This document shows positions 10,936-60,317 of a stretch of 64,000 bases of DNA, one piece after another (position 1 is the stretch's first letter; each line of letters opens with the position of its first letter). The notes under the pieces were generated by a model. That model did not search any database. It was given only the letters and a program-made list of their open reading frames with translations, and had not been told where the DNA came from. This DNA comes from Allacma fusca (Eukaryota; Arthropoda; Collembola; Symphypleona; Sminthuridae): the NCBI GenBank assembly GCA_947179485.1, contig OX359250.1:4671661-4735660 (forward strand), in the 5' to 3' direction. Made by a program: the position numbers and the translations under genes.

Positions 10936-13900
10936 GCAACAGAAAAGTCTCCCACCCGTGAAATCCTCTGTGACAACCCCAGCACCCATATCACACCTAG
11001 TCAGCAATTGTGACACAAGTCCCAATTCAATTTCATTACAGTCTACAGGTAGTCCGAGATTGTACAACCCAGGAGGAGGCAGCACGTTGGCTCCTCTGGT
11101 GGCAAATCAACCTCCAATGAGCCTTCCAAATTCCTATGACGTTCACCCGAGTCAGACGGAATTAAAATACACCACCCCCACGGAGTTGGATGAAGCACTG
11201 CACACTTCCCCCAGTTTACATCGTTTGGAAAATGTTCATGAATTAGAGACTAACGGTGGGATGTGTTGTCCGAAGTTGGAGAATTGCTCTTCCCATCTCC
11301 CCCTCACTCCCACTACATCCGAGTACTCATCTGATGCGGAGAACGTCTGTCCGAGTGAGTCTTACCTTTCAATTTCTTACCTCTTTTCCTCCTTTTCATT
11401 GTCCATTACTCGGGACGTCGGGACTCTACTCTCTTATAAATGCTCTCTCACTTTTCGTGTCTCCAGTCCTTCCCCCCTCCTTCCTTCCATCCTCATTTAA
11501 TTAGCTCTCCTCTTTCATCCTATTTACTCTCCTCCACTATGTCTCCGTCCTTCCTTCCCTTTTAAATTAAATGCCTAGCAGCTTATTTTTCCAACTCAAT
11601 AAATTCATCCAGGGAAAAGTACTTTGAGTAATTAGCTCAGCATTTCCACCAATTATCTTACGCTAACATTTTAGAATTTTATTGGGAGCGAAATGTCTAA
11701 GGAGTATATTTACTACAACTGAGGACAACTCTCATGATTATGTTTCTAGAATTTATCAAGGTTAGGAGGTATTAGTCCAGACCTGGAGATTTGTATATAT
11801 CGTATTAGTAATAATTTCAGAAACTACATAAGAGTGGAAATAATAATAATATTAATAATATTAATGTTGACAATATGGGGTTAATCTTTCCAAGTTTCAC
11901 TTGGAAAAGGTTAGTTTTTTTTAAGGCATATGTTTTTATACTGAGACAGTTATCATTAGCAAAGTCACCCAATAAGGGCCCTTCACAAACCCTTCAATGA
12001 GGATCTATAATGTAATTAATAATTTACAGCAAATAACAGGATGTATTTGTTTCGAAAACAGTCATGTGTGGGTCAGGTGAGTATGGGATAAAATGAAGGG
12101 AAATATTTAGTCCGTGTTTAACCTTAACATTCAAAGTGTGTTGAAATTATCCTACTGACCGACTAACCCGGAATCAAAGCCACTGAGTCAAGGCTGGACT
12201 TGAGTAAATACTTCAATTCGTAGTGTATACAGTGCCAAGAAATGATTATCCCCCTCCACAGCTCTTCAGCCCAGCCCATATAAGGGGCAACTGAAAAAAT
12301 GTTCAATTTCCATATGATTTACCATATATAATTATATTTTTCCAGATTTTTACAAATTTATTTCATCCCACTAGCTCAAAAACTCTGGATGCAGCGGTTC
12401 AGGAAATGGAGCAAAGTCAGGATATGTTTGGCATAGCGGACCAATTTTTAAATCCCTTATTCCTGCCTAAAGTATTTTTCAAAATATGCTTTGATACTAT
12501 TTAGTAGTAATTTTTAAGGGCGTACTGTTGAGCTATTATACATATTTATACGTTGAGAATTGTGGGCATGACCCGTAAGAACAGAGAACAAGGTTGGGGA
12601 ATTCATCTATAGGAGCAAAGATGTGGAAAAATAGTTTTTGACTTTTCCATTTTTTCTTGGACCGTCTGTGGTTTCTGTAAAAATAATTTGAAACAGTGTA
12701 TTTGTAGAAAATCTTACGGGCATTCATTTGATCTCAATATCATTCTCCTACGTCAAAAATGACGTTCTGTGGAACGGTTAATGTGAGACAAGATAGAAAC
12801 AAAAGAAAGAAATGTCACTCTTTTAAATCAATTCATTAGCAGTTCACTCAATCAGTTTGGATTGTTAAATTATTTTTATAAAGCACACAGTCCATGAAAA
12901 AATAGCAAAGTCTAAAACTACTTTCCCATATCTTTGTTCCTAAAGATGAATTTCCCAAACTTGTTCTCTGTTCTTACGGGTCATGCTCCCAATTCTCAAT
13001 ATATTGACCCGTGTCATAGCTCAACAGAAAGTCCTTAAAATTTGCGACTTAAAACAGTCTCAAAGAATAATTTAAAAAAATACTTTGGGCAGGAATACAG
13101 TGTCTAAAGGATTTTAAACTTTTCAGTTTTCCCTCAAAACAAAATCTGGAAAAAGATTTGGTAAATCATAGGGAAATTGGATATTTTGTCTCTTGTGTCC
13201 CTTATGTGGGCTGAGGGGGGGGGGGTGAGGGAATCATTTTTTGGGACCCCTTATAGTTGTACGTACGTATAGAAATACCAAAGTGCTTCATGTGATATTA
13301 TGTGAAAGTACATGACTACATACATGCATACGAAGCAATTCTGGTTACAGTACAAAGAGCAAAGGCTTACATGTAAAGTATATAGGTTTAAGAAAAGATT
13401 TTGGCTATGAAGGGGGCATTGCAGTACTCTTCCTTCCAAGAAATCAGTTGAGATGTTTCTTTGATGACGGGGACAAGAGAGAGACGGAATGCTCCGAGAT
13501 ATATTTATAAATTTACATGCGTCATTATTTCTGGACGGTGATCTGAAGGGAAGTTAATGTACGAGATGGTGATTATGCTAATGGGAGAAGGGCCTTGAGA
13601 AATGAATAGTGAAATTAAAACTAGGAGCGGGGAGAAAGTACGAAAGGAAAAGGAAATGTTGGAATGGGGACCAACATCTCTCCGTAGCATTTGGGATCAA
13701 AGTTGATAAATATAAATAGGATTAAGGAGAGCGATGATGTCCTCAGCTCCGGCTATCCATGAAGATGAAAGGGACAGGAATATACTAACCGAGGTTTTTC
13801 CTTCAAGTAGGTGAGGAGACGCTGGACGCCGGGTGTGAAGTGGTAGTGGAGACGGAGAGTAACCGTTCAAGTTGTGAAGTGCTTCCAAGTCGGGCGGAGA

Positions 13901-15248
13901 AAACTCCCATACCGTACACTTACGACGAGCTGCTGGTGACGGATGGAAGATCAAAACGGAGGGCGAGTAATCAGAGTCATTCGGGAGCCTTCACATCAAG
14001 TAGTAAGAGACAGTTGTTAAAGAAGAAATACAAGGAGCGACCAATGTCAATCGTGACTTCTGCAGAGCATCGAGCGAGAAGGTCTTCGACACGACTCCAG
14101 AAGCAACAACAACAGACTTTGCATTGCTTTCCTCTCCACTCACAGCAGCAGCGGTCGCCGCGCGGGAAGCCACGCCAGGTCCCACGTCCTGCCCAGCAAC
14201 AGGCCCGGTCCAGTCGGTATAAAAAGAATCGGAGGCAAGAGCAGGAGGAGGAGGAGGAGGAGGAGGATGAGGTGGAGTTGGAGGAGGAGGAAGATGAGGA
14301 GGGCCTCGATGAGAATGAGATGGATGTCTTTGAGATGGATGACGAGGAAGATGAGTACCCCGAGTCGAAGACAACTCGACAGCGCTATGTCTGCTCCGAG
14401 TGTGGCAAACACTACGCCACATCGTCCAACTTGTCGAGACACAAGCAAACGCATCGGAGTCTCGACTCTCAGAACGCGAAGCGCTGTCCGACTTGTGGCA
14501 AGGCTTATGTGAGCATGCCGGCTCTCTCCATGCACCTTCTCACCCACAACTTAACTCACAAGTGTGAGATTTGTGGGAAGGGCTTCTCTCGTCCATGGCT
14601 TCTGCAAGGTCACATGCGGTCCCACACGGGGGAGAAACCTTACGGATGTGCTCACTGTGGGAAAGCCTTTGCTGACAGGTGTGTCATCAGGACTGGGGCC
14701 TTTTCTTACATTATCTATGTATATTATTTCTTACGCATGTCATTACATGACATGGTCTCCCCCTCCCAGATTAACCTGTGAATTTAAGGATTCACACTTT
14801 TATAAAAGTAGGGACGACCCAACTTGATGAGCTTGTCATGGAAGTCTCACTTTTACTTGTTGATCAAATGTTTTTTTTTTTTGAACAAAACACGGGTTTT
14901 CTTAATGGAATTCTTCGTCCCCTTGAGATAATGTCATAAGTAAATGATCTGAAGTGGATTTTTTGTATGTGTTTCAGGTCCAATCTCCGTGCTCACATGC
15001 AGACTCATTCCTCAGCTAAGAATTATACTTGTAAGCGGTGTAATAAATCTTTCGCTCTTAAATCCTATCTAAACAAACACTCTGACTCGTCCTGTCTTAA
15101 AGACTCTTCCTCAGTTTCCGAAGGTGGTTGCTCATCCAACGAGGAAACTTCTGGTAGCACAAGTCCTGCCATGTTGGCAGACCAACTTACGGGAGGTGGT
15201 AACGCCTGCGAACAACAGACCGTGCCTGCACTGCTGGGCAATAAATAG
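6922..15248 (+). CDS. scrt: Scratch-family SNAG / five-C2H2-finger transcriptional repressor (four coding exons)
   Basis: Coding exons 6922-7177, 10671-11354, 13811-14678 and 14978-15248 join in phase to 692 codons plus a TAG stop. The protein starts [11 protein letters not shown], the SNAG motif, which in this family recruits co-repressors. A polyQ run lies near residues 165-177, and a [11 protein letters not shown] motif near 357-367 matches a segment conserved in Scratch but not Snail/Slug. A Glu/Asp tract spans about 457-499. Five zinc fingers follow at about 505-528, 537-560, 563-586, 591-613 and 619-641. The last is C2HC-type, ending H-x4-C. Signature strings such as [26 protein letters not shown] and [10 protein letters not shown] place it in Scratch. 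Family knowledge: nuclear, binds CAGGTG-type E-boxes, promotes neural fate. An upstream in-frame ATG at 6895 would add nine residues and bury the SNAG, so 6922 is preferred. Evidence for transcription is not available here. Confidence 0.95.
8722..8743. repeat. (TG)n microsatellite in scratch intron 1
   Basis: Short uninterrupted TG run of about 11 units. Confidence 0.9.
9305..9410. repeat. degenerate short repeats of AAAATGCCC/CTGAAA words
   Basis: Near-tandem words such as AAAATGCCCAAAATG and CTGAAAATACC recur six or so times over about 100 bases, consistent with a decayed low-complexity array. Confidence 0.45.
10671..11354 (+). CDS. scrt: scratch coding exon 2 (polyQ linker region)
   Basis: Acceptor CTTATAG|ATGG. 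The leading AT joins the C of exon 1 as a His codon and continues as [12 protein letters not shown]. It carries a CAA/CAG run at about 10906-10941 (polyQ) in a Pro/Ser/Thr-rich, probably disordered linker. It ends CCGA|GTGAGT with one base over, completed as Ser by exon 3. Confidence 0.9.
11355..13810 (+). other. scratch intron 2
   Basis: A 2.46-kb intron from GTGAGT to AAGTAG. It is largely occupied by an inverted-repeat transposon (12230-13251). The rest is AT-rich with pyrimidine-rich tracts just after the donor and no conserved open frame. Confidence 0.85.
12230..13251. mobile_element. ~1-kb inverted-repeat (MITE/fold-back-like) element flanked by TATA
   Basis: The left arm (12230 to about 12610) and right arm (about 12950-13251) are imperfect inverted copies. 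Both contain AGCCCATATAAGGGG-type and ATTGTGGGCATGACCCGTAAG-type words. The tips read CAGTGCCAAGAAATGATT and, inverted, AGGGGTCCCAAAAAATGATT. TATA lies on both sides (12226-12229 and 13252-13255), as expected of TA-targeting Tc1/mariner-type elements. No transposase is visible. Related copies or fragments lie at 28.2, 46.7, 54.1-54.9 and 61.55 kb. Confidence 0.75.
13811..14678 (+). CDS. scrt: scratch coding exon 3 (Scratch motif, acidic tract, fingers 1-4)
   Basis: Acceptor AAGTAG|GTGAGG, entered in phase 1. It encodes the [11 protein letters not shown] motif, a basic Ser/Gln-rich region, the Glu/Asp tract (about 14240-14365), fingers 1-3 and the first half of finger 4. The donor GACAG|GTGTGT splits an Arg codon inside finger 4. 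Confidence 0.95.
14679..14977 (+). other. scratch intron 3
   Basis: A 299-base intron splitting zinc finger 4 (ADR|SNLRAH). It runs from GTGTGT to TTTCAG and contains a T11 run near 14871. Confidence 0.9.
14978..15248 (+). CDS. scrt: scratch terminal coding exon (end of finger 4, finger 5)
   Basis: Starts G|TCCAATCTC and restores the finger-4 sequence [11 protein letters not shown]. Finger 5 follows (C-x2-C, then NKHSDSSC), then a short Ser/Gly-rich tail to TAG at 15246-15248. An AATAAA hexamer at 15240-15245 abuts the stop and is probably not the working polyadenylation signal. Confidence 0.93.
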
Positions 15249-25808: not shown

Positions 25809-25817
25809 GCTTGGCTC
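25809..25817 (+). repeat. target-site duplication (left) GCTTGGCTC
   Basis: A 9-bp direct repeat, identical to 27655-27663, bracketing the fold-back element. Confidence 0.75.
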
Positions 25818-27654
25818 GTGTTCGGAGAAAACTCCGCTGGGGATTTTTACGCCGAGATTTGTACGCCGCGAAAACTCCGCGGGAGTTATTTACGCCAAGG
25901 TGGAGATTCTTACGCGGAGAAAATTCCGCCGTAGATTTTTACGCCACGTGAGAGAAATTTACGCGGAGAAAATTCCTTCGGAGTAGGGCTCCTCACAATT
26001 TCAAGTAGTAATTGCAACTATCAATTTCAAATACAATTTCAATTCAATTTTAATTGATGATAATCTGCAAGTTGTAAATTGAAATCAATTTCAAATAAAA
26101 ATGGCTTTTTAGTTGTTGATTCAATTTCAATTACAAATCAACTATCAATACTGTCATTATAATTGGGAACTTCCACAATTTCAATTTCAAATAGCTGCGT
26201 TGCCAAAAATTGATAGTTGAAGTTGATGATTGACAACTAGTAAATGTTAAGGCAAGAATGCGCGCAAAGGGAGGAATGTGCAATGTGCAATCAAAGCGCG
26301 GAGATTACTCAACTTCCCAAAGCAAAGGACACCTTAATCTGCTTATTTCTTCTAATACAAAAGCAACGAAACACTGAAAAAGTAACTCCAATCCAAAACT
26401 AATGGGGAACCCACAATTACCGAATCTGAAAATCTGTTTGATATTCAAATGATTAGTTGTAAATACGATTCCAGGAACAAATTCGAGCGATATCTTTCAG
26501 AGCACCATGCTAAATCGACAGACCTGAAAATGGTGTTCTTAGTTTGCAGTTGGAAGGTGAATGAGTTTAGTTTAATTTCATAGCAAACAAATTGATCAGA
26601 TGTAGCAAACACTATTTTAGTCGAATTTATTTTCAATTCAATTTAATCCCAATTACAAGTCAATTTCAACTTGCTCATATTTTGAAAGTTGTAATTGACA
26701 ATTCAACTATTGACGCTGCTACTTGATTAATAAAAATTGATAATTTTTCAAGTATTTGATTGACAAATAATCAACTACAAATTACCACTATAAATTGAAT
26801 TGAAAATTCAATTTCAACTACAAATTCAATTTCAACTACAAATTCAATTTCAACTAGCTCAATAAATTGAGTTGTGAGGAGCCCTACTTCGGAGATTATT
26901 ATGCTGCAATTTTAACTACACCCAGAAAAACAATTTAACTACCAAGGGTAATATTTTCAGTATAATATTGTGAGACACTGTCAGTACAAATTGTGCCCGC
27001 GACTTCTGAAATGCCAAGTGAGAGAAAATTCCGCAGATTTTTCTGGAGTAATTGTCTGTAACACACGAATTTTATTCTTATACAAATGTTTTTTCAAAAC
27101 TGTAGTCATAAAATGCACTTGGTAACATACTACCAAACGTATGGTGACAGCATCCATAAAGCACTAGAGGAAGGCATTTTGAATTATGCTGCTGGGAAGA
27201 GTGACAAAGAATTTTATTTAATAAGAATCTGCTATGCGGATTTTTGTCACCGTTGTACCGCCTTTATTGATTGCGTTAATCGGTGACATTATTTATGGAA
27301 AGTTACTAGTCGATGAATGTAACCCTGGGCTGAAATTTAATTTGTTGAAGTCACCTCATCTTTGATCCTCTCATCTTCATGTCACTATAGTGGTACCCAA
27401 TCATTATGGTTGGCATTATGAATTTAAAGAATTCGCTGACAGTTTGTACTGGCAGTGCCTCACAATATTCTGCTGAAAATATTAGCCTTGGCAGTTAAAT
27501 TGTTTTTTTATGTAATTTAAAATGCAGCGTAAAAATCTCCGGCGAAATTTTTTCCGGTTAATAATCTCCACCCGGGCGTAGTAATCTCCCGCGGAGTTTT
27601 CTCTGCGTAAATAACTCCGCGTAAAAATCCCCGGAGGAATTTTCTCGTAACTCC
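25818..27654. mobile_element. element A: fold-back transposon with long, sub-repeated inverted arms
   Basis: The left arm (25818-25983 continuing at 26895 to about 27000, interrupted by a hAT insertion) and right arm (about 27440-27654) are imperfect inverted copies of ~270 bp. The outer part of each arm consists of degenerate GC-rich units (GGAGATTNTTACGCC-like). The inner part matches over CAATTTAACTRCCAAGG and ATATTGTGAGRCACTG. The termini are GTGTTCGGAG (left) and, inverted, GGAGTTACGAG (right). Perfect 9-bp direct repeats flank it, as in Mutator-like and Drosophila FB-type fold-back elements. The loop (27.0-27.44 kb) holds only a short 66-codon frame of unknown meaning. Confidence 0.8.
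25984..26886. mobile_element. hAT-type non-autonomous element 1, nested in element A
   Basis: A 903-bp insertion with perfect 15-bp terminal inverted repeats TAGGGCTCCTCACAA, flanked by the identical 8-bp duplication CTTCGGAG (25976-25983 and 26887-26894). An 8-bp duplication with TAGGG tips is the hAT hallmark. Many CAATTTCAA-like sub-terminal repeats fill both ends, as hAT transposase binding arrays do. No transposase frame was found. Removing it restores the continuous left arm of element A. Confidence 0.92.
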
Positions 27655-27663
27655 GCTTGGCTC
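27655..27663 (+). repeat. target-site duplication (right) GCTTGGCTC
   Basis: Perfect copy of 25809-25817. Confidence 0.75.
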
Positions 27664-30022
27664 AGCAAAGCAAATGTAATTTGGGGAGGCAGTAAATAGT
27701 TGCATGCAATAGTAGGCTGCGCAGTGCAACTAGAGTGCGCGTAAATTTGATTCTCAAATCCGTATTACACCAAGACAACGACGGTCAACTCGTTTATTAG
27801 AAGAGAGGATAAGGATTTATTCAGGCTGGTTATACTTTGCAAATGAATTACCAAATGCTGTATATTTGCAATTAACAAAAGGGTTATTTTTAGTAAAACA
27901 AGTAAAAGCCGCCTTCAGGTAATGCGAACAGGCAGGTTTCATACTTTAGCTATTAGACATACAGGGTGACAAGAAACATCAAACCACCAAACCCTACTTA
28001 ATGAGGTGTAATAAACAGCATTTCCCGATGATGTAGCAAATCTTCACCTATATTTATTAGAATTTGTTTCATCACCCTGGCCCAAAACCTCCAGACATAG
28101 TGGTCCAGGAAGAAACAGTCAGCATTTTTTTAAAGTTCGACTTTTGACCCGTAATTTCTTAAAAATATTTTTTACCTTAATTATAGGCATTAGGCAATTT
28201 TTCAAAGAACTGTCACATAGGTTCCTATGTTGAAAATTGTGGGCATGGCCCATAGAGCTAGAGAGTAAGGTTGGGAAAAGCAAAATGTAGTGCAAAGTTT
28301 ATCACAGGTGAACGCGCATGACTACTTAATTGTTTTAAGAAGTACATATTTTTTGTTTTCCACTGTTTCTTGATTCGCATGGTAGATATTCCTTCTTTGT
28401 ATATTTCAGTAATTTTGGAAATTTTTGAAAATTCATTCAAAATTTTTGATTGCAAAATTCCCAACAAATGTTATAAATTTTCATTCCGGTGGTCATAATA
28501 TCAGTGAATTTTTGCATGGAGGTGCAGAATAAATGCAGTACTGCTGACATGTTCCAGTATTACTTGAGTTTTTAAGACAAGTCAAAGTTCGGGTCAAGTT
28601 CAAGTAGCCCAATTTATTTACTTGAATCATTCGGGTAAAGTTCAAGTAATCCCATTTATTTACTTGAATGAGTCGGGTCAAGTTAAAGCACGTACTCGTC
28701 GTGACAAGAATATTCTAAAACAAGTCAGGTTCATGTACATACAAGTAAGGCAAATTAACTTGAACCTCAAGTCAAGTTCAGGGACGAGCAGTCCCTGAAA
28801 GAAAAAACTTGACCATGAACTTGAGGTATCACGTCTAAGTTCAAGTAATATTGGATTGCACATGCCATGAAGGACGGATAACAACTCTTAATGTAGTGTT
28901 CACGGTAAAGTGATAAAATGAAGATACGTGACCATAAACGTGAGTTTGAGGACAAATTTTAAAAGCAGAATCCGTTTTATAAACGTTTTATGTTTACCTA
29001 ACAAACATGCGCGTTTACGCATTTGCTCATTGTTAGTTGCTGCAAAGGTCTCTCCTGCCAAGGTCAATCATTATCTTGACAATTCATTATTGCTTAGAAT
29101 TACCAGCTTAAACTGGAATACTTAGATTCCAATAGAAAATGAGCATTACAAACTGGGGAAATTACGACGTTAATACAGGAGATAGAAAGGTCAACAATGG
29201 GAAAGAAGAGAACCAGTCCACAATTCTGTCCAAAAGAGGGTAAATACCTGTGAACCCACTGTTCGTAAGTGGTTCTTTAATTTGGAAGCAATAAAGGAAA
29301 TAATGTATAGTAGATATCTTATTATTTAAGATCGTGGTTTCTTGCGATCACAAAACGTTTTTCTAAGGGAAAGGCGTCAGGAACCAGGAACTCGCTAAAG
29401 CACTTGAGAAGTCACCATCCCAGCAAATCAGAAAATGATAAACAATCCAGTTAGGTTATATGTGCTATTTCAAAAAGCATTTCATAATCAGGTAAACACT
29501 AGTTTGCTTTCAATATTAAGTTAAGAGTACCGGTAATACTTAAATGGATGAATGTATGAACATTAAATAAATCTTGACACCGACACCATGTAATACTCGT
29601 CAGATCTACAGTGAAAGTTGCTACAATGGATCAGGTTATGTGTGTTTGGCCCCACCCCCATTTGCAATTGTTTACACATTATGGGAAATTCCTATATCAG
29701 GGACTAAATTGTACGGTCCCTTGATCTTTCCTTATATCGGAATTTTACTGCATTCAGAATAAGCGTAAGATGTTATCAAATTTTTGTTACTATTATTTTT
29801 TAGAAATTCTCTTCGGATGAGCTTATCAAAATACTCGTTGAGTTCATTCTGATGACGGACCAACCGTTCAATAAAAATTAAACCGATTTTTAATTCGGAA
29901 AGGCTGAAGTAAATGAAATGACGAATGTAAGTATGACAACATTCGTTGAACAATTACCCCTCTTCTATAGCTAAAACAGAAGAGTCACAACTTTAATTCC
30001 CATATCTGAGTCTAATTATTTC
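27664..30022. other. repeat-rich non-coding stretch between elements A and B
   Basis: No firm gene. 28225-28280 is a fragment of the inverted-repeat family seen at 12.2 and 54 kb (GAAAATTGTGGGCATGGCCC). 28550-28860 is an ACTTGA-rich cluster. A minus frame at 29953-29732 (containing IRHFIYFSLSELKIGLIF) looks mildly protein-like but has no recognisable domain. Confidence 0.5.
28550..28860. repeat. TCAAGT/ACTTGA sub-repeat cluster, possible small MITE
   Basis: Dense copies of CAAGTTCAAGT and TTACTTGAA on both strands. The cluster opens CAGTATTACTTGAG and closes with the inverse of CAATATTACTTGAAC, suggesting imperfect inverted ends. The 8-base flanks do not match, so element status is uncertain. 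A second cluster with the same words lies at 32660-32840. Confidence 0.5.
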
Positions 30023-30555
30023 GTGTTCGGATATATTCCCTACGAATATTCTCCCTTCGGATATTATCCCTCGAACAGATTCGCTCCAAACTTATTGCCT
30101 CCTTGAGAGGGGATGTTTATTTATTTATTTTATGATTTACTATCACTGCACAGCCAGCTATTGCTGGATTCGAAAGGCTTCATACTTAGTTGGTTCAGAC
30201 ACTTTGCACATGGTACAGAAATAGCTAACTTTGCAGTGCTGTAATAAATAAACATTAACGTACGACACAGAGAAAGGGCTAATATCTTAATCGGCTAGTA
30301 TTAAAATATTCCAGACAAAATGTGGATTCTGAGATGCCTAAACAAGCTTCGGCTTCGCCAATGGAAAACACACGCCAATTGTGAATACACGCATGTTACA
30401 TACCGAAAAAAACCGGGTAGTTAGCCTTTAAGGTAATTGGTACTCTCAGTCGCAAACCAAGAGGAGTTTCTAACTTTCAAGAGGGAGAGCAAAGATTTAA
30501 TTTTCATCATCGTCAAATTATGTTATCAGATAACGGATCAAGCCACCGCCTGCGT

Positions 30556-31385
30556 TAGTGGTCGGACCAATTCAGTTTAAATTGCAATTTTACAATTCAA
30601 TTCAATTCAGTTCAGTTCAATTCAGGGATTTTTCAATTCAATTCGATCGTTTACTGAACCGAATAATTCAATTCACCTGTTGAATCGAATTGAATTGTTT
30701 TCTTTGAATTCCAATTCAAAACAATTCCAGGCTGAATAAAAAACGATATTGTACGGATAAGTTTAACACCATCTTTGCGTCAATGTAACCAGCATTATAA
30801 ACGTATGTGTTAATATTTTTAGGGTGGCGTCAGCCCCCTCATAAGATACTGTTGTCCGTGGATGCTTGATGCTATTTGTCCCGACGTATTTCTCCGACCC
30901 GATTTTGTTCAAACTTTTTGTGAAAGTTCTTTAGGCCACTCTCTAGAAGGAGTTCGTTATTGGTTGAAGTTGAAGTCGTAATGCGTTTTCGTACGTAAAA
31001 AAACGACAAGCTGTTCCACCGATTCCAATGGATTTTTTTTACACTTACCAGTCTATACACTAGCTTATTTTTTTTAAATTAACAAAATTTTATTTTTTCA
31101 AAATTTGGCATTTTTATTTTTTAAATGAGGTCAACATAATACTACAAAAAGGGTAAGAAGAGATGGCCTTAGCTGAAGCGCCACCCTAGCCAGTTTGCAG
31201 TATTTATGTGTAAATATGCTCGGCGAACCAAATGGTTTAAAATTCAGTTCAGTTAGTAGACTGAACTGAATTGAATTGAATTGTTTTTTTCTGAACCGAA
31301 TTGAAAAACCAGTTTTAATTCAGTTCAGTATTCGAACTGGATTGAATTGTAAATTTTGAATTGAATTGAATTGTTCCGACCACTA
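30556..31385. mobile_element. hAT-type non-autonomous element 2, nested in element B
   Basis: An 830-bp insertion with inverted tips TAGTGGTCGGA(C/A)CAATTCA and a perfect 8-bp duplication GCCTGCGT (30548-30555 and 31386-31393). Its ends are packed with AATTCAATTCA sub-terminal repeats. It contains a further 365-bp TA-flanked element and no transposase frame. Confidence 0.92.
30822..31186. mobile_element. TA-flanked MITE inside hAT element 2
   Basis: Inverted tips GGGTGGCG-TCAGC and GGGTGGCGCTTCAGC, with TA on both sides (30820-30821 and 31187-31188), as left by Tc1/mariner-type insertion. This is the third nesting level. A 62-codon minus frame inside has no recognisable domain. Confidence 0.75.
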
Positions 31386-31691
31386 GCCTGCGTCGGTGGA
31401 TAACCGCAATTTCCCAATGACAGCACCGACGCAGTCTAGTGGCTTGATCCGCCAGTATTAAAATTCTATTGCCGAAATACGTTTTTTAAATAGAATATTT
31501 TTTTTACATAATGGCCGTTTTTTCTGAAATACAAATTCGTATGTTATAGTCTAACAGTACAGAACTTCTTTCAACACACAATTTGCAAATTGTACTCGCG
31601 AACCTAGATGATTTAGGAGAAATTAGCCAATAGCCTCAGTAAAGCCTTTTTAATTACTCCAATATATTTTAGCAATTAAAAATCCAACAAA

Positions 31692-32012
31692 TTAAAAAAC
31701 ATCTTCTAAAACACAATTACTTGTGTATGTACCTTTGTCCATTATTTCACCTTGTTTGGCAGTATCAGTTACAACAACCTTGATATTTTCTTTAGACTTA
31801 CCCCTCGAGAAAGCAACATACACATAAAGTCCATGTGAAAATAAATCCCAACTTTACCACAACTTTGTCTCTGACATTTATTGACTGTCTTTGCAAATAA
31901 TATTCTAGTAGGAAGCTGTCTTCTCTTTAATATAAATGTGTAGTCACTGCTGATGTTGTTATAAATGTAGCCCGTGATAATATCCCCACCCTTGGTACTG
32001 TATAGTGCTTTG
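31692..32012 (-). pseudogene. C-terminal remnant of a Pif1/Helitron-type helicase
   Basis: Read on the minus strand, it shows RRQLPTRILFAKTVNKCQ, the motif preceding the Q-G of superfamily-1B helicase motif V, then VGIYF. After a +1/-1 frame break come VAFSRGKSKENIKVVV (the VALSR motif VI) and a typical terminus TYTSNCVLEDVF then TAA at 31692-31694. The usual G of the SQGQ motif is changed and the frame is broken, so it is inactive. Pif1-like helicases unwind DNA in telomere and replication roles, and as the helicase half of Helitron Rep-Hel proteins. No Rep domain is seen. The upstream end (32012) is approximate. Confidence 0.75.
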
Positions 32013-32400
32013 GTATACCAGTAAGCTTAGCCTTAATGGTAAACTGAACGCAACGCAAAATCCAATGACCAGACTAATCAAATTGCTGTAACGCATTGTT
32101 TTGCATTTTTAAATAACATTGCCGTAAAGAATAAACTTCCTTGGTGCGAAGAGTTCTAGGCGAGTTTTTGTCAACAATAAACGAATGTTTACTATGCCAA
32201 CTGGTGTGCGAGTTATTTGTTGAGACGAGTCACCATACGATCTGCATTGCCTTTTCTGCTTTGTTGGCATAGTAACGTACATTTATTGCATATGTGAGCG
32301 GCAAATATTTGTATGAAGGATTATTTCCAATGTAGCGGGGGATAATATATACGGAGGGAATATTACCGGAGGGATTGTGTCGGAGGGATGTCTTAACGCC

Positions 32401-33839
32401 TGGCTCAATTGAAAAGATTGGAAAGTTGCGCGCAGAAACTTTGGACAAAGAAAATGCTCAGCCAGGCTTGCAATTACCAGCACTATAACTGTTACTATTT
32501 TAAAAAAATGTCCTCAAATGGTTTTAAATAATAAATAGTAACATTGTTTTCTGAAAATGTTTTGGATTTCAGTCTTGGTAAAATAATTTGGTGATGCAAG
32601 GTCAACAATTTATTGTGCCCATAATTTATTTTTTGTGATACTTAACTTAAATTAACAAGTTACAGCCGCGTTCAAGTCAAGTGTGGAACTGTAAATACTT
32701 GATCCAGTTGGTGTGTTGGAAAATTTACTTGATTACTTGAACTTGACAAGTCAAGTAATTAACGCGAATTCTTAATATCATGTTGTCTTGCGAATTACTT
32801 GAAGTTTCATGGTCAAGTAAAGTTCCAAGGTCGAGTTTTGAAATTTCTTCTTTGCGGTATATTTTAATATTCTTGAAAAGCTTCAGGAAAAAGTTTCAAA
32901 ATTTTCAATGTTAAGTACAGTATCATCAACGGCTTACGTGACTATCAGTACGACTACGATTCAAGCTCCTTGAATCGTAGCTAAGCTCCGAGAATCAAAT
33001 TACTAATCTCTACGCTGAATATACGATACGATTGTATGGTGTACTATAAGGAAAAATTTGCGTTGTTGCAGTTTTAGTTTGTTCCCATGAGGGCACCATT
33101 TTATTTATCGTAGATACAAAGGACAAATTGTGTGCAATTGATCCAATAATTGAAGATAATCCATGGCATTACAATTGCTAATATCATTCACAGCATTCTT
33201 AATACGATAATCGAGTAGGCGATAATTTCTCGTTGACGGCGGTGGATTCTCGCCTGACCTGGTCAATGTGGGGTTCCAACATAATTTTCCTCGAAATACC
33301 GAATGAAGTCGTGCTTACCATGCATGTTTTCGTTTAATATGCGGGTTTTCAGAATCTATCATCAAAACATTGTGAACATCTGGAACTTGAAGTAGTAAAC
33401 CATGTGGCCGTCCGATGTACTACAAACTTACACGTAATAAGTTCTCACTTGATCAAACGGAACAAATGTCAGTGAGGGTAAACGACGTATCAACCCTGAA
33501 AAATTAGCGCTTATTCTATATCTGAAACACCAAATAACAATCAATCATAAAACTCTGAAAATCTATGCTATGCTAAGCTCTGAAAATCCAATGGTTTCAG
33601 TAAATTTTCACATGGGAAGCTTTATATGTATAGTGAAGTGTAACACTAATTCATGTTTTTCACTTAAAGAATATATTTGTAATGGCGAACATAGACGACG
33701 AACCTTCTTTGGAGAAACGTTTTTCTGCTCCGTGGTGGTTTCTTGACTAAAGGATGCTTGATTTTCTGTTTTTCAGTATTCAAAAAATGTTCTGGTTAAA
33801 AGATAAACAAATAGGCTATTTTACAAAAACTCCTAAACT
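32401..33839. other. non-coding stretch between element B and the transposase remnant
   Basis: No gene recognised. It includes a second ACTTGA-rich cluster (32660-32840). Its sequence near 32701-32840 repeats the words of the 28.55-28.86 kb cluster in both orientations. Confidence 0.5.
32660..32840. repeat. second TCAAGT/ACTTGA sub-repeat cluster
   Basis: Words such as GTTCAAGTCAAGT, TTACTTGA and TTGACAAGTCAAG recur on both strands. Same word family as 28550-28860. Confidence 0.5.
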
Positions 33840-33859
33840 GACAGCAAAAATACTTACTA

Positions 33860-34465
33860 GTTGCCAGTTTCTTGGATTGTGTAACTTTAGATAGTAAAAC
33901 TTCGGTAGCTTTAAGCGCCTCTTCTGCTTCCAAAATAGTCTTTTAAAACGCCGCAACCTCAGGATCTGGAATGTTACTGGAACCTCCAGGAAGTACAACT
34001 TTATACCAAGGGCGCTCAATGACTTCTCTTTTGATAACTACGAATTTTTCGCGATCCAATACCATGACATTTCTTGAAATACACCAACCAAGCCGGAGAT
34101 GCTTTGAAGGAAAAGTTTGGGATCACCTGTGCATACTGAAGTGCCCATCTTCTGATATCCAAATCTTGGACAATTTTACAGTCCTCTCGGGCTTCTTTAA
34201 ATCGTCCATACACATAAGTATCAATTTCTACAAGTTTGTCATAGCGACTCCCACAATTTTTTACCTGCTGTATCCATCGTTGTTTGTAGCAAGGCTGCTT
34301 GAATGTACTGCACTTGGATCGGAGTGTCTTGAATTTCCAGCTCGGATTTTTCTCAATCAGCTTAACCAATTTTACTTTGGTCTCAAATGGAACGTACGCA
34401 TTATCATCGTATATGGTCACATAAAACGGAGCCGTCGTCATCCACAAAACTTGTGTCAAGGCCAT
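33860..34465 (-). pseudogene. CENP-B/Tc5-type helix-turn-helix transposase-like remnant
   Basis: The 149-codon minus frame from 34465 shows two DNA-binding blocks. One is a basic psq-like segment (YVPFETKVKLVKLIEKNP). The other is a CENP-B/Tc5-type helix-turn-helix (IRRWALQYAQVIPNFSFKAS, then AWLVYFKKCHGIGSRKI). The frame then stops. A different frame continues with IERPWYKVVLPGGSSNIPDP and, after an in-frame stop, a charged helix (ILEAEEALKATEVLLSKV) before a good GTAAGT donor. Such domains bind transposon ends in the Tigger/pogo group or are domesticated as CENP-B-like proteins. No DDE catalytic domain is visible. The 170-codon + frame on top of it is an antisense shadow. Confidence 0.6.
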
Positions 34466-34935
34466 CGTCGCCTGATTTTTTAAAAAGAGTAATTATTAAC
34501 CACAGTAAATATGTGATCAATGTGTTCATACTTGGGCTTTTGCTCGGGATGTTATGGTGACGGTACAGTATACTATTGTTGTAAAGTGAATGTGTATAGG
34601 AGTTATTTCGTTTAAAATTGAATATTGTATACACTAGCTTTTTAAAAGTGAACTTTTGCTATTATTACACGTGCTCATATAGAAATAGTGAAATTTGGAG
34701 CATTTTTAAGATTGGAATTCGGATGGGGTTTTGATGTTCGTAGGACAGCATAGTTTCGGGAAAACAATTTATTGATATCTTTTTTCGTTCATTATCTGTC
34801 CTCTGTGCAGCAAATTATTTTTTCCCTTTTTTCAGTAGGTTACCTTAAATACATACAGGTTACCTTAAATCTATTATTGTTTAAAATAGGAGCCACTTTG
34901 CAAAACGACGATTTAAACAAGCAAGCCACACCAAA

Positions 34936-34968
34936 ACGGGTTGCAGAGTTAAATTTGCTCGTTGCAGG
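34936..34968 (+). repeat. candidate left target duplication of element C
   Basis: ACGGGTTGCAG (34936-34946) is identical to 37497-37507. A second GTTGCAG ends at 34968, immediately before the terminus-like GGAGTTAAGAG. Which copy is the true duplication is unresolved. Confidence 0.5.
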
Positions 34969-35195
34969 GAGTTAAGAGCTAATCCCGCCGCGATAATCCT
35001 GCTGGTATTATTCCCGCGAACAGTATCCCGCTGTCAGTTTGATCGATGAATATAATCCAGTGTCTGGGGAACAGCCACACCCACAACCGCCACCGCGGCC
35101 AACTGCCCTATGACCAACTGCCACCAGCTCACGAATTCGCGGCAAACTGCCCATAGACCAACTGTCTCATAATTCCTCAAGTCACATGTTAGTCC

Positions 35196-35337
35196 TATAC
35201 TCAGTCACATTATAAAATCATATGCTCAGTCAAATTATAAAATCATATGCTCAGTCAAATTATAAAATCATATGCTCAGTCCAATTATAAAATTATATGA
35301 TCAGTCACATTAAAAAGCCCTATACTCAGTCACAATC
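35196..35337. repeat. 25-bp tandem repeat, about 5.6 copies
   Basis: Units of the form TATGCTCAGTCAAATTATAA followed by AATCA begin at 35196, 35221, 35246, 35271 and 35296, and a partial unit begins near 35320. The central copies are identical and the outer ones vary at a few bases. It lies downstream of the RING/C2H2 remnant within element C. Confidence 0.9.
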
Positions 35338-35416
35338 AAACAATTAATACTACTATGTAGATATCTTGTCTTTAAATTATATTTATTTGTAATTAATAAT
35401 AATACAAACAGTATTA

Positions 35417-36189
35417 TTAATACGCATGGAATATGCGAACATGCCGACGACGGGCCTGTCGTGAGTCAATAGGGGATCCCCAGAACTGGCATGGAGTCCT
35501 CCGGAAATGCGTCTCGCGATGCTGTGACTTGTGGCCAGTCGTATTAAAACTTCGGCCACAAATGTCACAAGTATACGCATTAAAAGGAGGCAACTGCTGA
35601 CCCGGTAACACTAATACTAATGGCGCATTCAACCAAGCAGCCTCTCCCTCGTCGTCGAACACCATTTGTCCAGTTGCGTTTCCTGTGCCATATGTCCATA
35701 CTGTCTCCACGGTCATTTGACCGGGTCTCACAGGTTGTCCCAAATGTACCGGTGTCTGTCGGGAAGATTCCGTCGGTGGAATCATTGGGTTCCGGTCGAC
35801 AACAACTGGCACCACGTCAACCTCAGCTGCTACCACGTAAACAACAACCGGCTCAAACTCTACTTAGCAACCAAGCTTTCTGTCACTTGGTCCTCCACAA
35901 TCGTGTACACCAGGTCAATATCCGGGATCTGAGTGCGACAAATCGGACATAGGTCCAAGGTGCGAACAGTATGTTTATCTAAAATATTAAATCAAATAAA
36001 TATAAAATCAAAAAATAGCAGTAGAAGAAACATTATAATAAGAAAAAAATCAAATGAACCTTAACAAGTTCATCTTCAATTGACGGATCCTGATCCCTCC
36101 ACTTCGTCACACAACTTGTACACTGTATGTCCACAGGGACCACTAGCGAAGACACCAGACACACTTTTGTAGCATATTACACATTCCAT
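35417..36189 (-). pseudogene. broken RING-finger plus C2H2 zinc-finger protein, cargo of element C
   Basis: From ATG at 36189 the minus strand reads MECVICYKSVSG...CGHTV, the first half of a C3HC4 RING. The next half, CTSCVTKWRDQDPS, is one frame off. A possible short intron (about 36065-35984) leads to LDLCPICRTQIPDIDL, the last RING zinc pair, which ends in a stop. A further frame shift gives the 139-codon stretch ending at 35417, with one C2H2 finger (CDICGRSFNTTGHKSQHRETH) and a degenerate second (CQFWG...RRRHVRIFH). RING domains usually recruit E2 enzymes in ubiquitin ligases. The breaks, seen directly, make this copy inactive unless splicing rescues it. Family outside the two domains is unknown. 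Confidence 0.6.
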
Positions 36190-37035
36190 TACGATTAATT
36201 TAATGATATAAACTCCTTTAAAAAGTCAACTCGCCAAAACATGTTCTCATAAACTCAAACCGAAAACGGCGCAAAAACGCACACGCGATTTAACACAAGG
36301 CAGTATATAGGCTGCCGTGTAATAAAACGCGAAAAGAATTCCCTCACGGTACCGTCTGGTCAGCCTCAAATAATTCCCTCGAAAACAATGATTGGAACAT
36401 TGAAGGAACGTATAAAGTTCCGCCACATCCATTTTGTCAGTTGTACACGATACATGGTTTCCGCTTACATGCATCTTTACCCACCTCGTTTGAATTGCTA
36501 CCAAATAAATCTTAAGAAACATTCAACCGGCTTTTCTCTACCATAAAAGAACTCCAGAATGGGCTTGCTCCGAGATCTCTGATGACGGATTTGGAACACG
36601 GGTCAATCAAAGCGTTTCTGGGAGCCTTTGCTCAAACTGAAGTTCGGGGATGCTTCTTTCACTTTCAACAGTGCTTATGGAGAAAAATCCAGTCTAGATA
36701 CGCTTTCCCAAAGGCTAATATTTATATAATGCGTTTATAAATGGTCGTTCATGATTTTAACAACTAAACGGTTATGGACTGCCTAAGATCAATTTCGTAA
36801 CTTGTTTTTTGCCGGATATATATTACATTAATACTACATAACCATAACATAATCTATGTAAGATATTGATTACATGATGTAATAATTATAATATTTTGGA
36901 GTCACTAAGCATAAGGCTTTACAATGTCACTGAGCATAGGACTTTACAATGTCAACTTTACAACAGTGAAGATACAACAGTTGAGCACTCAAGATCCGAA
37001 GTAATAAACAAATAATAAGCAAAGATAAGAAAAAG

Positions 37036-37210
37036 CAGGGGTGGATTAATAAAATAATTTTTACCCTGGCCCTAACCCTCCAAATAGTTTTGTGGGCCTT
37101 TACACATTATATCTACAATCTGAGGGCCTTAGTCAACATTTTTTTTACCCTGGCCCTAAATTTTTTACCCTGGCCGGGCCAGGGTGGGCCACCCCGTAAA
37201 TCCACCCCTG
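37036..37210. mobile_element. 175-bp hAT MITE (element 3), nested in element C
   Basis: Inverted tips CAGGGGTGGATT and CAGGGGTGGATTTA, with a perfect 8-bp duplication AGAAAAAG (37028-37035 and 37211-37218). Inside, the phrase TTTTTACCCTGGCCCTAA recurs. It is too short to encode anything. Confidence 0.93.
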
Positions 37211-37507
37211 AGAAAAAGAGTTCCTGTCCTGTTCCATTTAAATGTCATTTTAACGTTAATTTCAAAAAAAAGTTTTTATTTATAATTCTGAATAATGAAC
37301 AGAGTGCAGGCAAATATTAGCAAACAATTATTGTTTACTGAAGTTAATACAATAAAACCTGGGTCGGGAATATCGTGAGCGGAGCTATGGTTGGCGGGAT
37401 TACATACTTTTGAGATGGGGATTAAATCCTCGGGGTTGCTTCGGCGGAGTTATCACTGGCGGGATTGTCGAGGTGAGATTATCTCTGGACCTGGACACGG
37501 GTTGCAG

Positions 37508-45214: not shown

Positions 45215-45778
45215 CTAGACCCCTCCAGAACTATTCTTAGGGAAATGAGTTTTCTCATGAGCTTTAAGAATAGTACTCCGGCTAAATGTCTTGCCACATA
45301 AACCACAGCGAAAAGGTCTTTCACCCGTGTGAACCCTTGCATGATCCTTCATATGATGCCGTAACTTAAAAGCCTTCCCACAAAATTCACATTTAAATGG
45401 TCTCTCGCCGGTGTGTATCGGTAAATGTTGGATGAGCATACTTACTTCCGGAAATGGTTTACCACAAAATTTACATACAATTCCACCTTGTTGACTAACA
45501 TGTTCCTCCAAGTCACCAGGACCCGGGGGTGAATGATTCATTTCTTCTGAAGAGGGTCTACCACTACTTCGATAATGAGGCGGGGGTTCCGGCGGGGACT
45601 CTACAGGCTGGTCCATTGCTGAGGACGACGTCGTCGACGCTGACGGATTGCTGTACAGGGCTGAGTAGACTGTAGGATGAAGTAGCATTATGTGGCGGGA
45701 GAGGGCAGACTGGGACGGGAAATTAGTTGAACAATATATACAACAATAGCGGAGGCAGAGTGGCTCATTTTGGACGTC
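45215..45778 (-). CDS. BTB-ZF coding exon 5 (all four zinc fingers, stop)
   Basis: Acceptor TTTTTTAG|GAC at 45778, phase 0. The first finger begins just inside (YCCIYC...SRHIMLLH), upstream of the first Met of the open frame, which confirms the exon extends past 45688. Finger 4 is followed by FPKNSSGGV and the stop. Confidence 0.92.
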   Translation of the reverse strand, partial: DVQNEPLCLRYCCIYCSTNFPSQSALSRHIMLLHPTVYSALYSNPSASTTSSSAMDQPVESPPEPPPHYRSSGRPSSEEMNHSPPGPGDLEEHVSQQGGIVCKFCGKPFPEVSMLIQHLPIHTGERPFKCEFCGKAFKLRHHMKDHARVHTGERPFRCGLCGKTFSRSTILKAHEKTHFPKNSSGGV

Positions 45779-48700: not shown

Positions 48701-50398
48701 TGTCTGTTGACTCAATCCTATAATTTGCAGATTGTCAGCTGTCTTCAATAAACTATTCATTTCTTCAGGTGACACTGAGACTTCCCCTCTACATCATAAA
48801 TACAAAATAATGACGTTATTCTCCTGTACTCAAACTCGTCAATTTCTAAACACAAAATGTCATAAAAACATGATACTGGAAAATATCCTTTCCCCTACAA
48901 TTAACCAAAGCATATACACTCCTCCACAGTCAATATATTCTAGTTTCTCCGTCCCAAGGCAGTTTTCAACCAAGAAAGGGATTTTATCCACACAAATAAA
49001 TTCACTAGATCACAGCAGCAATTTTGGAACAAATGGAATTTACCAGTTATTTTTTATTTTTCACGGAACTTGATGTGCTGGCTTTTGTGGCTAGATTAAG
49101 AAACTAAGAGAATTTAGTCTCGGAAACTCATATTTCGGAGATTTGAGAGGACAAAGGTCATGTGGGGAATATGTTCTAATACATGGTTACGACACCCTGT
49201 ATAACATCAAACATTCTGAAATCAGCGATTAGTGAAAAATTAAATAGGCATAATCAATAAAGGAGACTCTAGGCATACATAACAGTTTAAATTAAATCAG
49301 TATAGTAGTATGTAGTGTACAAAAGGTACATTGCACACCCTTGACCTCTCAAATCTCCAGAACTATGAGTTTCGAAGATAAAATTCTTTCAGATTATTAA
49401 TCTGTACACGCACAGAACCCCTATTTCATTTTAAAAAATACAAAAAAATAGCTGGTAAACTGTATTTATACAACAACTTCATGCGTACAAGGAATTTTCC
49501 ACTTCCCTTAGTTCTCTTTGAAAAGACGTTCAGAAATTAAGGGTGGAGGACACAGACAGTCAAGGACCAACCTGTACATAAACGTGACGAGAAGCTTAAG
49601 CACGGAAAACCGAACATCTTGTAGAATAATTATTGGATGTGGATGACTCGAATAACTCGAAAGAATCGAACGGAAATAAGGTGAATTCGCAGACAAAACC
49701 ACTCGATGAACTTTGACCTGTTCTGTTGGACTGCAGGCCTGGAAAAAGAAAAATAAGCATAACCCTTAGTAATGATCAATTAAATATTAACAAGTCATTA
49801 AAAGAAGCACAAAATGTGCCCTGACATCATAGCTGTCAATATGTCTTAAAAACACAATTACTCGGACTGACCTATCTAATATGTATCTCATTCACTGCCA
49901 TGTCATACGTTCAAAAAATGTCACAAGTTTCTATTTTCTATTATTAAAAGGACTACTGAACCACAACATTGATGCACGCATTGTCCAAGCTACATATTTT
50001 TGAATTTTTGCCCGCAACAATATTATAAGTAACTGAAACAACCAACTTTTAACACATATCCCGAGAATATATCTCTCCCTCCAAAAATCAAAAGTTGCCT
50101 AGTATCAGTCCCAACCCCAGACCCAAGCATAATAATATCAATAATATCCCTATATCATTCTACTAATAATATAAATTAAATAATAATCCATCCTCACATC
50201 AAAGTTGTCAATCATTTCTAAATTTAATTTACAAATCCTTACCAACGTGCAGTCAACGAGTGACTCTTCAGTTAAAAGGGTCCATAGACTATCAACAACA
50301 ACTCGACGGAATTCATCCCATCTTAAATTAAATTCGGGAACTATATTTGAACTGCTCGAAGTTGCAGTCGTTCCGTCCAAATTATCTGATGTTTCCAT
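45215..50398 (-). CDS. BTB/POZ C2H2 zinc-finger transcription factor (five coding exons)
   Basis: Coding exons in order on minus: 50398-50243, 49738-49572, 48788-48485, 45993-45913 and 45778-45215. All phases agree (0, 2, 0, 0) and give 423 aa. The BTB domain covers about residues 22-133: FNLRWDEFRRVVVDSL, VDCTL, HRVVLSANSPYF, VTFMYRGEVSVSPEEMNS and LQIIGL. A Ser/Thr-rich linker and a short polyQ (DHQQQQQK) follow. C2H2 fingers lie at about 249-270, 337-358, 364-386 and 392-414; the last three have TGERPF linkers. The BTB fold mediates dimerisation and the fingers bind DNA. The layout is that of the arthropod TTK-type BTB-ZF group (broad, abrupt, tramtrack, lola, fruitless), but I cannot assign orthology. 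A conventional BTB segment between VDCTL and the VHRVVL block is only a short insert (ACSPTEQVK) here. Confidence 0.9.
45779..45912 (-). other. BTB-ZF intron 4
   Basis: A 134-base intron, GTATTT to TTTTAG on the minus strand. Confidence 0.85.
45913..45993 (-). CDS. BTB-ZF coding exon 4 (acidic/polyQ linker)
   Basis: 81 bases, 27 codons, phase 0 at both ends, reading ALKKEDDDWDSRSDHQQQQQ onward. Acceptor TTTCAG|GCG, donor GAG|GTATTT. It could be a cassette exon, since skipping it keeps the frame. Confidence 0.85.
45994..48484 (-). other. BTB-ZF intron 3
   Basis: A 2.5-kb AT-rich intron from GTGAGC to TTTCAG. A stretch near 46650-46930 shares words (GGAGCAAAGTCAGGATAT) with the 12.2-13.25 kb inverted-repeat element, so it is probably a decayed copy. 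Alternative zinc-finger exons, common in this gene class, were not found. Confidence 0.75.
46650..46930. mobile_element. fragment of the 12.2-kb inverted-repeat element family
   Basis: Shares GGAGCAAAGTCAGGATAT and a flanking CAGATTTT-type context with the left arm of the 12230-13251 element. No clear ends. Confidence 0.4.
48485..48788 (-). CDS. BTB-ZF coding exon 3 (end of BTB, Ser/Thr-rich linker)
   Basis: Acceptor GATGTAG|AGGGG. The first base completes an Arg codon to give MYRGEVSVSPEEMN. It ends the BTB fold with LQIIGLS and enters a Ser/Thr/Pro-rich linker ending DEQEQDSPL. Donor TTTG|GTGAGC. Confidence 0.9.
49108..49386. mobile_element. MITE-like element with ~50-bp inverted ends in BTB-ZF intron 2
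   Basis: The left arm (about 49108-49168) and right arm (about 49333-49386) are inverted copies sharing GAAACTCATA and GGAGATTTGAGAGG. Target duplication not identified. Confidence 0.65.
49572..49738 (-). CDS. BTB-ZF coding exon 2 (BTB core)
   Basis: Acceptor TTCCAG|GCC, donor TACAG|GTTGGT; 167 bases. It carries the diagnostic HRVVLSANSPYFRSIL and LKLLVTFMY of the BTB core. Confidence 0.92.
50243..50398 (-). CDS. BTB-ZF coding exon 1 (start, BTB N-terminus)
   Basis: ATG at 50398, 52 codons, ending VDCTL with donor TTG|GTAAGG. The start is the only Met before the BTB N-terminal helix. A short Ser/Thr leader precedes FNLRWDEF. Confidence 0.9.
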
Positions 50399-59463: not shown

Positions 59464-59465
59464 TA

Positions 59466-60315
59466 TCGTCGGTGAAGAGGCAAAATGATCTAGGTGCATA
59501 ATCGATTAGAATCAAAATGATCTACATAACTTTTTCCCTAAACGCAAAATGAACTGGGTGCAAGCCTCTTTAAAAGCAAACTGATCTACATACAATTTTC
59601 CTTAAAAGCAAAATGATCTAAGTGCTGGTCTATTTTTTTTGTTTGTGAGAAAAATAGCATCTGTAAGGAGGACACGTGGCTTATAAGGGCTAACCATGAC
59701 TGTAATTGACCTAGGGTTGTGGGTTAATATTGTCTGAAGGGTTTGCTATTACTAAGGATCATTTGGGCAACTAAAGTTAATTTCACTTATTGCATCTAAT
59801 ACATTTTTAGTTACGAAAACTGTAACATTCATTTATTTTAAAATCGACGAATTAAAAGACGAATCAAAATCACAGTAAGCTCATGTTTCATTGTGCACAT
59901 TGAATTGGTTTTCCCTTTAATAATTCTTTACGTGGAGTTTTTTCAAATCGTATTTTACGATCATCACCATTATCATAACATTCGGAATCATTTTCAAATG
60001 TTAAATCATAATTGACAACATTTTTTTTCAATGTTACTGAAAGAAAGAAATGGAGGCATTGGGGAATTAAATGCATATATAAACGATTTTGAATACCTCG
60101 CATTTTTGTACACCGGCATTAGAATGTGTTTACTTATATTGTTTTTATTATAATTTGTATCTAGATCATTTTGCTTTTAGGAAAAGCTGCATCTAGATCA
60201 TTTTGCTTTTAAAATTCAATGCAAGTAGATCATTTTGCCTTTAGTGAAACTGCAAGTAGATCAATTTGATTCTAATCGATCATGCACCTAGATCATTTTG
60301 CCTCTTCACCGACGA
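59466..60315. mobile_element. 850-bp TA-flanked inverted-repeat element with sub-terminal repeats
   Basis: About 60 bp of near-perfect inverted ends starting TCGTCGGTGAAGAGGC and containing GCAAAATGATCTAGGTGC. TA lies on both sides (59464-59465 and 60316-60317). Each end has four to five spaced copies of (G/T)CAAAATGATCTA, the pattern of a transposase binding array. No transposase is encoded, so it is non-autonomous, probably Tc1/mariner-like. Confidence 0.85.
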
Positions 60316-60317
60316 TA

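Follow-up and report, generated by a model that had tools for sequence, protein, structure and literature searches.

Foldback elements in a 64-kb stretch of the Allacma fusca genome as probable remnants of Mutator-type transposons with a two-gene autonomous relative

A stretch of 64,000 nucleotides from the genome of the collembolan Allacma fusca (assembly GCA_947179485.1, contig OX359250.1, positions 4,671,661 to 4,735,660 of the forward strand; hereafter the window, in whose numbering positions are given) contains three elements, A, B and C, that share unusual ends and differ in their interiors. We are highly confident that they are remnants of foldback cut-and-paste transposons of the Mutator (MULE) superfamily, the autonomous form of which resembles a two-gene element found at another locus, L054. 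A, B and C are small and mostly damaged. Their family belongs to a known kind, but its second gene, which encodes a protein with RING and C2H2 fingers, is unusual. An earlier note on the window, written from its letters, had grouped the three by their common tips, and this grouping is borne out below by paired tips, 8-bp target duplications and, for A, empty sites.

The tip CGTGTTCGG was located at 25817 (+) in A and at 30022 (+) in B, and CGTGTCC at 37499 (-) in C; the opposite tips are GGAGTTACGA at 27654 (-), GGCGTTAAGA at 32400 (-) and GGAGTTAAGA at 34968 (+), respectively. The two ends of an element are unlike, with CGTGTYC at one and a GG(A/C)GTTA-like tip at the other, and are followed inward by GC-rich, degenerate tandem units common to both. 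The tips and the units lie where the earlier note had seen them, and the long inverted termini built of tandem sub-units are those of foldback elements. The genome searched comprised 392.7 Mb in 91 contigs; match counts for end queries include the query itself and are lower bounds. At least 41 matches were obtained for the left end of A (best 40 of 342 first-look candidates scored), at least 40 for the end of B (best 40 of 103 candidates scored) and at least 40 for the right end of C (best 40 of 117 candidates scored). The termini of A, B and C thus occur above chance and are part of a large transposon family. Among the matches listed, the match started at query base 1, i.e. at the tip itself, in 41/41 cases for A and in 39/40 for B. 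Those listed for C started at base 10 in 38 of 40 cases, at base 11 in one, and at base 1 in the window itself only; in L057, the one such copy examined, this shift is due to a 6-bp duplication that the window copy has beside its tip.

The earlier note had proposed a genome search for paired ends and for an autonomous copy; paired ends were obtained, as was an autonomous relative for one tip type. An A-type sample of 20 stretches with A-type ends, together with the window, provided 24 left ends; pairing was sought between unlike tips, and like-tipped elements would appear as unpaired ends. A partner end was found for 22 of the 24. The left tip was CGTGTTCGG in 21/24 and the right tip CGTAACTCC in 21/22, and 21 of the 22 paired copies were flanked by an exact duplication of 8 bp, with 19 different sequences among them. 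Among the B-type copies (8 of the 39 other listed matches examined), for which borders were taken as the best duplication among tip-like sites, the duplication was 8/8 in five and 7/8 in one. The C-type copy L057 (one of the 39 other listed matches examined) is 624 bp long with a duplication of 8/8; the duplications of L054 and L056 are likewise 8/8. In the window the values are 8/8 for A, 7/8 for C and 0/8 for B. The flanking duplications that had been reported for A and, probably, C therefore exist, but their length is 8 bp and not 9 bp: the ninth base varies among copies, its match in A is due to chance, and it had seemed duplicated because the first base of the tip, C, was counted into the duplication. 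A length of 8 bp lies within the 8 to 11 bp of Mutator/MULE elements.

The site of A was also recovered elsewhere without A. Flanks of 70 + 70 bases joined with one copy of the duplication gave 41 matches, two of them A's own flanks, and 21 of the 39 non-self matches crossed the join, starting at least 15 bases before it and running at least 50 bases past it. The target site of A lies within a repeat, and copies of this site without A exist.

The autonomous relative, L054, is a 4,878-bp element with both tips and an 8/8 duplication, CCCTATAG, of which a ninth base fits too if the tip is GGTTAC. Its ends consist of inverted CAACTGCCAC units, and the end query gave at least 40 genome matches (best 40 of 175 candidates scored), 40/40 of which started at query base 1-3. 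Its first gene codes for a FLYWCH+MULE transposase of 469 aa, and the second, which follows downstream on the same strand, for a RING-C2H2 protein of 396 aa; introns were placed by us at GT-AG sites, and both frames are stop-free after their removal. The transposase gene is flanked by inverted 20-bp arrays of 17.6 and 22.6 copies. The FLYWCH (E 3e-11), MULE (E 6e-14) and RING (E 9e-7) domains all scored above Pfam cut-offs. The MULE domain that defines the superfamily (PF10551) reached 52.8 bits against a cut-off of 27.6, and the FLYWCH finger, which together with a MULE domain characterises Phantom, 43.7 bits in L054 and 32.1 bits in another transposase locus, L052, against 23.6; the C2H2 score of L054 (20.1) was below its cut-off of 25.2 and that of L052 (34.7) above it. 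The transposase of L054 contains the motifs DGTF, ADFE and LEGWH, which we take to mark its catalytic residues; compared with PDB sequences it gave five matches with E values of 1 or less, of which the best was to FLYWCH-type protein 1 (E 0.036) and the others were unrelated. Since a two-gene element with a FLYWCH+MULE transposase carries such tips, the family is assigned to the Mutator superfamily as a Phantom-like foldback group. The earlier note had recognised no named family; the family proved placeable by its features, the placement resting on published descriptions and not on sequences of the named families.

A MULE family search of the genome gave 49 matches, one of them within C of the window. 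L052 has a transposase with FLYWCH and MULE domains above Pfam cut-offs; the element at L052/L053 ends on the right in a CGTGTCC tip and, as judged by eye, on the left in a GGTTAC tip, but has no matching duplication. At L046 and L051 a CGTGTCC tip lies downstream of the C2H2 gene, and left ends were not found within the stretches examined. A copy at L056 with the duplication CTACTGCC (border at GGTTAC) interrupts a related element near its terminus, within an end whose uninterrupted form is present in L054; at L056:1-2761, family elements are nested in each other's ends. In L054, some 115 bp separate the two-gene element from the end of a B-type element (L054:67-188).

The RING-C2H2 gene recurs beside these transposases. 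The C-type protein gave seven genome matches, window included; with the RING half of the L054 protein there were 13, spread over 12 loci of which L054 itself is one (14/14 candidates scored). Transposase matches with an identity of 50% or more lie at ten loci (C1:28.73, C10:51.61, C5:4.66, C5:49.98, C5:49.91, C10:12.36, C8:46.83, C9:4.71 (window), C9:14.04 and C5:54.05 Mb), and a RING or C2H2 match lies no more than 7 kb from seven of them, or from five of eight without the query sources, window and L054. A transposase match is found within the same distance of 5/12 RING loci (4/11 without L054), always upstream on the same strand. By our own arithmetic, the chance of 19 such loci in 393 Mb falling within 7 kb of a given place is below 0.001. 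Because it is found near 7/10 close transposase loci, the RING-C2H2 gene is, judging from its genomic neighbourhood, the family's own second gene and not a captured one. A search for the core of the 25-bp array that accompanies this gene in C, with two mismatches allowed and the mean of 20 shuffles for comparison, placed it above the shuffle mean in six of the seven C-type gene loci, L049 being the exception; the core was absent from L054 and from the MITEs (miniature inverted-repeat transposable elements) of types A, B and C, each type being represented by one copy. The core is not specific by itself, for L052 has scattered matches to it, five forward and three reverse where the shuffles gave means of 0.8 and 1.0. 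In place of the 25-bp arrays, L052 and L054 have 20-bp ones.

In the mechanism that we propose, the FLYWCH + MULE transposase would recognise an end by its short asymmetric tip, CGTGTYC at one side and GG(A/C)GTTA or (G)GGTTAC at the other, and by the tandem GC-rich units that follow; it would then excise the element and insert it elsewhere with duplication of 8 bp of the target. The autonomous form, represented by L054, carries the transposase gene between inverted 20-bp arrays and the gene for the RING-C2H2 protein, and the A, B and C types are short gene-free forms, presumably moved in trans. We infer that a single type of transposase moves all tip types and that the two ends, being unlike at their tips, differ in role. 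The window holds an A with a later nested MITE, a B broken by an insert of about 2 kb and a C with the probable remnant of a RING-C2H2-bearing relative.

A number of observations speak against this explanation. One paired A copy, L011, has a duplication of only 4/8, and for the A-type ends of L019 and L021 no partner end was found. Two of the eight B-type copies have no duplication within the DNA examined, and none is present at the borders of B in the window, for which reason B is an unverified insertion. The 21 matches that cross the joined site of A extend just 7 to 11 bases past the duplication on the left, and the remaining 18 of the 39 do not cross the join, starting within the last five bases before it. 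When the joined flanks of C were searched in the genome, both matches were C's own flanks, and no empty site was found. No RING/C2H2 match lies near three of the ten transposase loci (C5:49.98, C5:49.91 and C9:14.04), and 7/12 RING loci have no transposase match within 7 kb. Finally, none of the autonomous copies found has tandem units of the A or B type, and mobilisation of A and B by an L054-type transposase is therefore unproven.

The interiors of the three elements were considered separately. A had been described as holding only a fold-back loop; the loop is present, but it is a separate nested MITE, presumably hAT-like judging from its termini and 8-bp duplication, and not cargo. Its site is uninterrupted in 5/5 sister copies examined, and the nested MITE is a later arrival. 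In B, a 75-base piece (32068-32142) matches the B-type copy L030 at 88%, so part of the 2-kb interior is B's own. The 85-aa frame in which a Pif1/Helitron-like helicase tail had been seen matched no helicase family in Pfam, its sole match being unrelated (E 0.011). Helitron capture in B was rejected; Helitrons have a Rep/helicase protein and no target duplication, in contrast to the duplications and MULE transposase of the present group.

C matches L057 at 96% over 34968-35058, 97% over 36960-37035, 85% over 37213-37317 and 95% over 37312-37490, and bases 92-177 of L057 (86 bases) are replaced in C by 1.9 kb. Over 498 bases (35230-35718) this interior is 85.5% identical to L046, a further locus with a RING-C2H2 gene of the C type. 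The RING plus C2H2 gene and the 25-bp array noted earlier are all there, but the RING and C2H2 scores in the window are under Pfam cut-offs, and a MULE core had been overlooked. We read the 1.9 kb as a truncated two-gene relative that probably landed inside a short MITE type. It is rather unlikely, though well worth weighing, that C is instead one autonomous element in decay, from which L057 arose by deletion: the outer ends of C have a 7/8 duplication, the interior is from the same superfamily, and a deletion derivative would likewise show like ends and a different middle. However, the interior opens with a CGTGTCC-like tip of its own, and the units there resemble the end of L046 and not the ends of C; moreover, the RING-C2H2 gene (-) and the MULE core (+) of C are on opposite strands, as against the same strand in L054 and four other loci.

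Capture of host genes or other sequence by one family, in the style of Pack-MULEs or Helitrons, would also account for like tips enclosing three different interiors, and MULEs are known to acquire pieces of host genes (PMC6446971, PMC5225508; here and below, statements on the literature refer to portions of the cited papers). We consider it very unlikely, since the element nested in A has a duplication of its own, the ends of B have an insert between them and no duplication, and the gene of C recurs next to transposases elsewhere. The suggestion of a family carrying different cargo thus found no support in these three elements: the loop of A is a nested MITE, the insert of B comes without a duplication and the gene of C derives from a related transposon. 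As to Pack-MULEs proper, the interiors of A and C are otherwise explained and B has no duplication, no search for a host origin of its insert having been made. An 8-bp target duplication is typical of the hAT superfamily, but that A-C are hAT foldback MITEs moved by a hAT transposase is extremely unlikely, and was rejected, because a FLYWCH-MULE transposase gene sits within an element that has tips of this kind, which we take not to resemble hAT ends; no search was aimed at hAT transposases.

Among the closest described systems is Tm1 of Meloidogyne, a Mutator/foldback element of the Phantom subclass with the tips CGGTTAA / CCTACCC, 13-15 bp units and 9-bp duplications (PMC3169594). Both have asymmetric 7-bp tips followed by GGA and tandem units, a FLYWCH+MULE transposase and mostly MITE-like copies, some with nested insertions; such end structure is already known because it was described for Tm1 (PMC3169594). 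Unlike Tm1, for which one protein is described, the present family has two genes, 8-bp duplications, the tips CGTGTYC / GG(M)GTTA and several unit types, and so is not Tm1 (PMC3169594). Phantom MULEs, including Muta of Aedes aegypti, resemble it in the FLYWCH finger of some members, 8-10 bp duplications, long terminal inverted repeats (TIRs) and non-autonomous derivatives, and most Muta families have short subterminal tandem repeats; aphid members contain a minisatellite, and one or two open frames occur, but the RING-C2H2 second protein departs from Phantom as described in those portions (PMC6446971, PMC5225508). Ghost MULEs have a RING open frame beside the transposase, a likeness by description only, but are without known TIRs or duplications and, in the portion used, no C2H2 part is mentioned; Spectre shares the 8-bp duplication and a C2H2 frame with transposase, but has perfect 74-bp TIRs and, in that portion, no mention of RING, as against the FLYWCH transposase here (PMC6446971). 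Tetris, a foldback element of Drosophila virilis, likewise has tandem units in its TIRs, 8-10 bp duplications and no conserved open frames; its autonomous partner was not found, unlike here, where one was found for one tip type, and in Galileo, as told in the same source, tandem sub-units serve as extra transposase binding sites (PMC4079207). Rehavkus (9-bp duplication, PHD finger) was rejected: duplications here are 8 bp, with FLYWCH and RING fingers instead, and the L054 proteins gave no PHD match up to E 0.01.

For many short foldback elements no autonomous partner is known; the results tie such elements to a transposon with two open genes, in which a RING-C2H2 gene travels with a FLYWCH-MULE transposase. 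In the portions used of the literature on MULE and foldback elements, the original Phantom paper lying outside this scope, no RING-C2H2 protein in a FLYWCH-MULE is described (PMC4079207, PMC3169594, PMC6446971, PMC5225508, PMC3630058, PMC5735166). Asymmetric tips in the nematode Tm1 and here suggest that the two ends of an element are not equivalent. One possibility, which we hold unlikely, is that the transposon uses its RING-C2H2 protein to counter silencing or to regulate itself; the zinc fingers of the protein would bind the element's own arrays (25-bp or 20-bp by subtype, the protein differing too), with the RING removing a host silencing protein. The VANDAL/VANC anti-silencing system of Arabidopsis similarly combines a further gene beside the transposase with variable tandem repeats in the element and tandem peptide motifs in the protein; the likeness is one of description, not of sequence relation, and the role of RING-C2H2 is putative (PMC5735166). 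If it holds, animals would have an answer to the plant system, with the protein as a counterpart of VANC that arose from different parts.

Table 1. Features of elements A, B and C and of the interval between B and C (window positions).
Feature	Position	Strand	Basis and remarks
Left target duplication of A, GCTTGGCT, 8 bp	25809..25816	.	border comparison
Element A, non-autonomous foldback MULE-type, 1838 bp, tips CGTGTTCGG / GGAGTTACG	25817..27654	+	paired ends, target duplication 8/8
hAT-like MITE nested in A, termini TAGGGCTCC	25984..26886	.	own 8-bp duplication CTTCGGAG at 25976-25983 and 26887-26894
Right target duplication of A, GCTTGGCT, 8 bp	27655..27662	.	border comparison; joined site elsewhere without A
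Element B, B-type MITE ends about 2 kb apart, no target duplication	30022..32400	+	ends correspond to bases 1-95 and 446-631 in L036 (646-bp copy)
hAT-like MITE within the insert of B, termini TAGTGGTCGG	30556..31385	.	8-bp duplication GCCTGCGT at 30548-30555 and 31386-31393
85-aa open frame, Pif1/Helitron tail of the earlier note	31769..32026	-	Pfam search
FLYWCH-MULE transposase gene, 3' part, decayed, between B and C	33062..33534	-	sequence match; absent from the earlier note
Element C, L057 MITE type with 1.9 kb inside, duplication CGTTGCAG / GGTTGCAG, 7/8	34968..37499	+	match to L057
Probable remnant of related two-gene element inside C	35059..36959	-	degenerate CGTGTCC-like tip AGTGTCT at 35059, read by eye
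25-bp array, 5.5 copies	35196..35332	-	repeat finding; core in 6/7 loci with this gene type
RING-C2H2 gene exon 2: CPIC half of RING, then C2H2 end	35417..35973	-	frame break near 35863
RING-C2H2 gene exon 1: CVIC...CGH half of RING	36085..36189	-	protein/domain matches
MULE transposase core, one in-frame stop	36372..36716	+	MULE family search, 36.4 bits, above cut-off; absent from the earlier note
25-bp array, inverted partner, 2.2 copies	36901..36954	+	repeat finding

Several further loci with related sequences were observed. L050:704-1656 contains a transposase N-terminus followed by a GGTGGT-rich minisatellite, a C2H2 end and a 25-bp array, and is perhaps an internally deleted two-gene element. 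An open 551-aa MULE transposase frame lies at L055:878-2530, with neither tip within the 3.6 kb examined. MULE domains occur in a 629-aa open frame at L039:331-2217 and an 898-aa one at L043:286-2979 (see also L042 and L044); the 898-aa length recurs at three places and the C2H2 finger of L043 is above cut-off, and these frames are possibly Spectre-like and recently active.

In the window itself, a 158-aa open frame between B and C (34016-34492, -) contains a Tc5-type transposase DNA-binding domain (PF03221, E 3e-5, above cut-off). A foldback-like element at 59463-60318 has inverted 32/64-bp tandem units and outer arms that are 97% complementary over 63 bp, with no clear target duplication by eye. 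The transposon-rich stretch is flanked by host-like genes, at 45215-45778 (-), 49508-49765 (-) and 13789-14781 (+), in which C2H2 fingers and a BTB domain occur.

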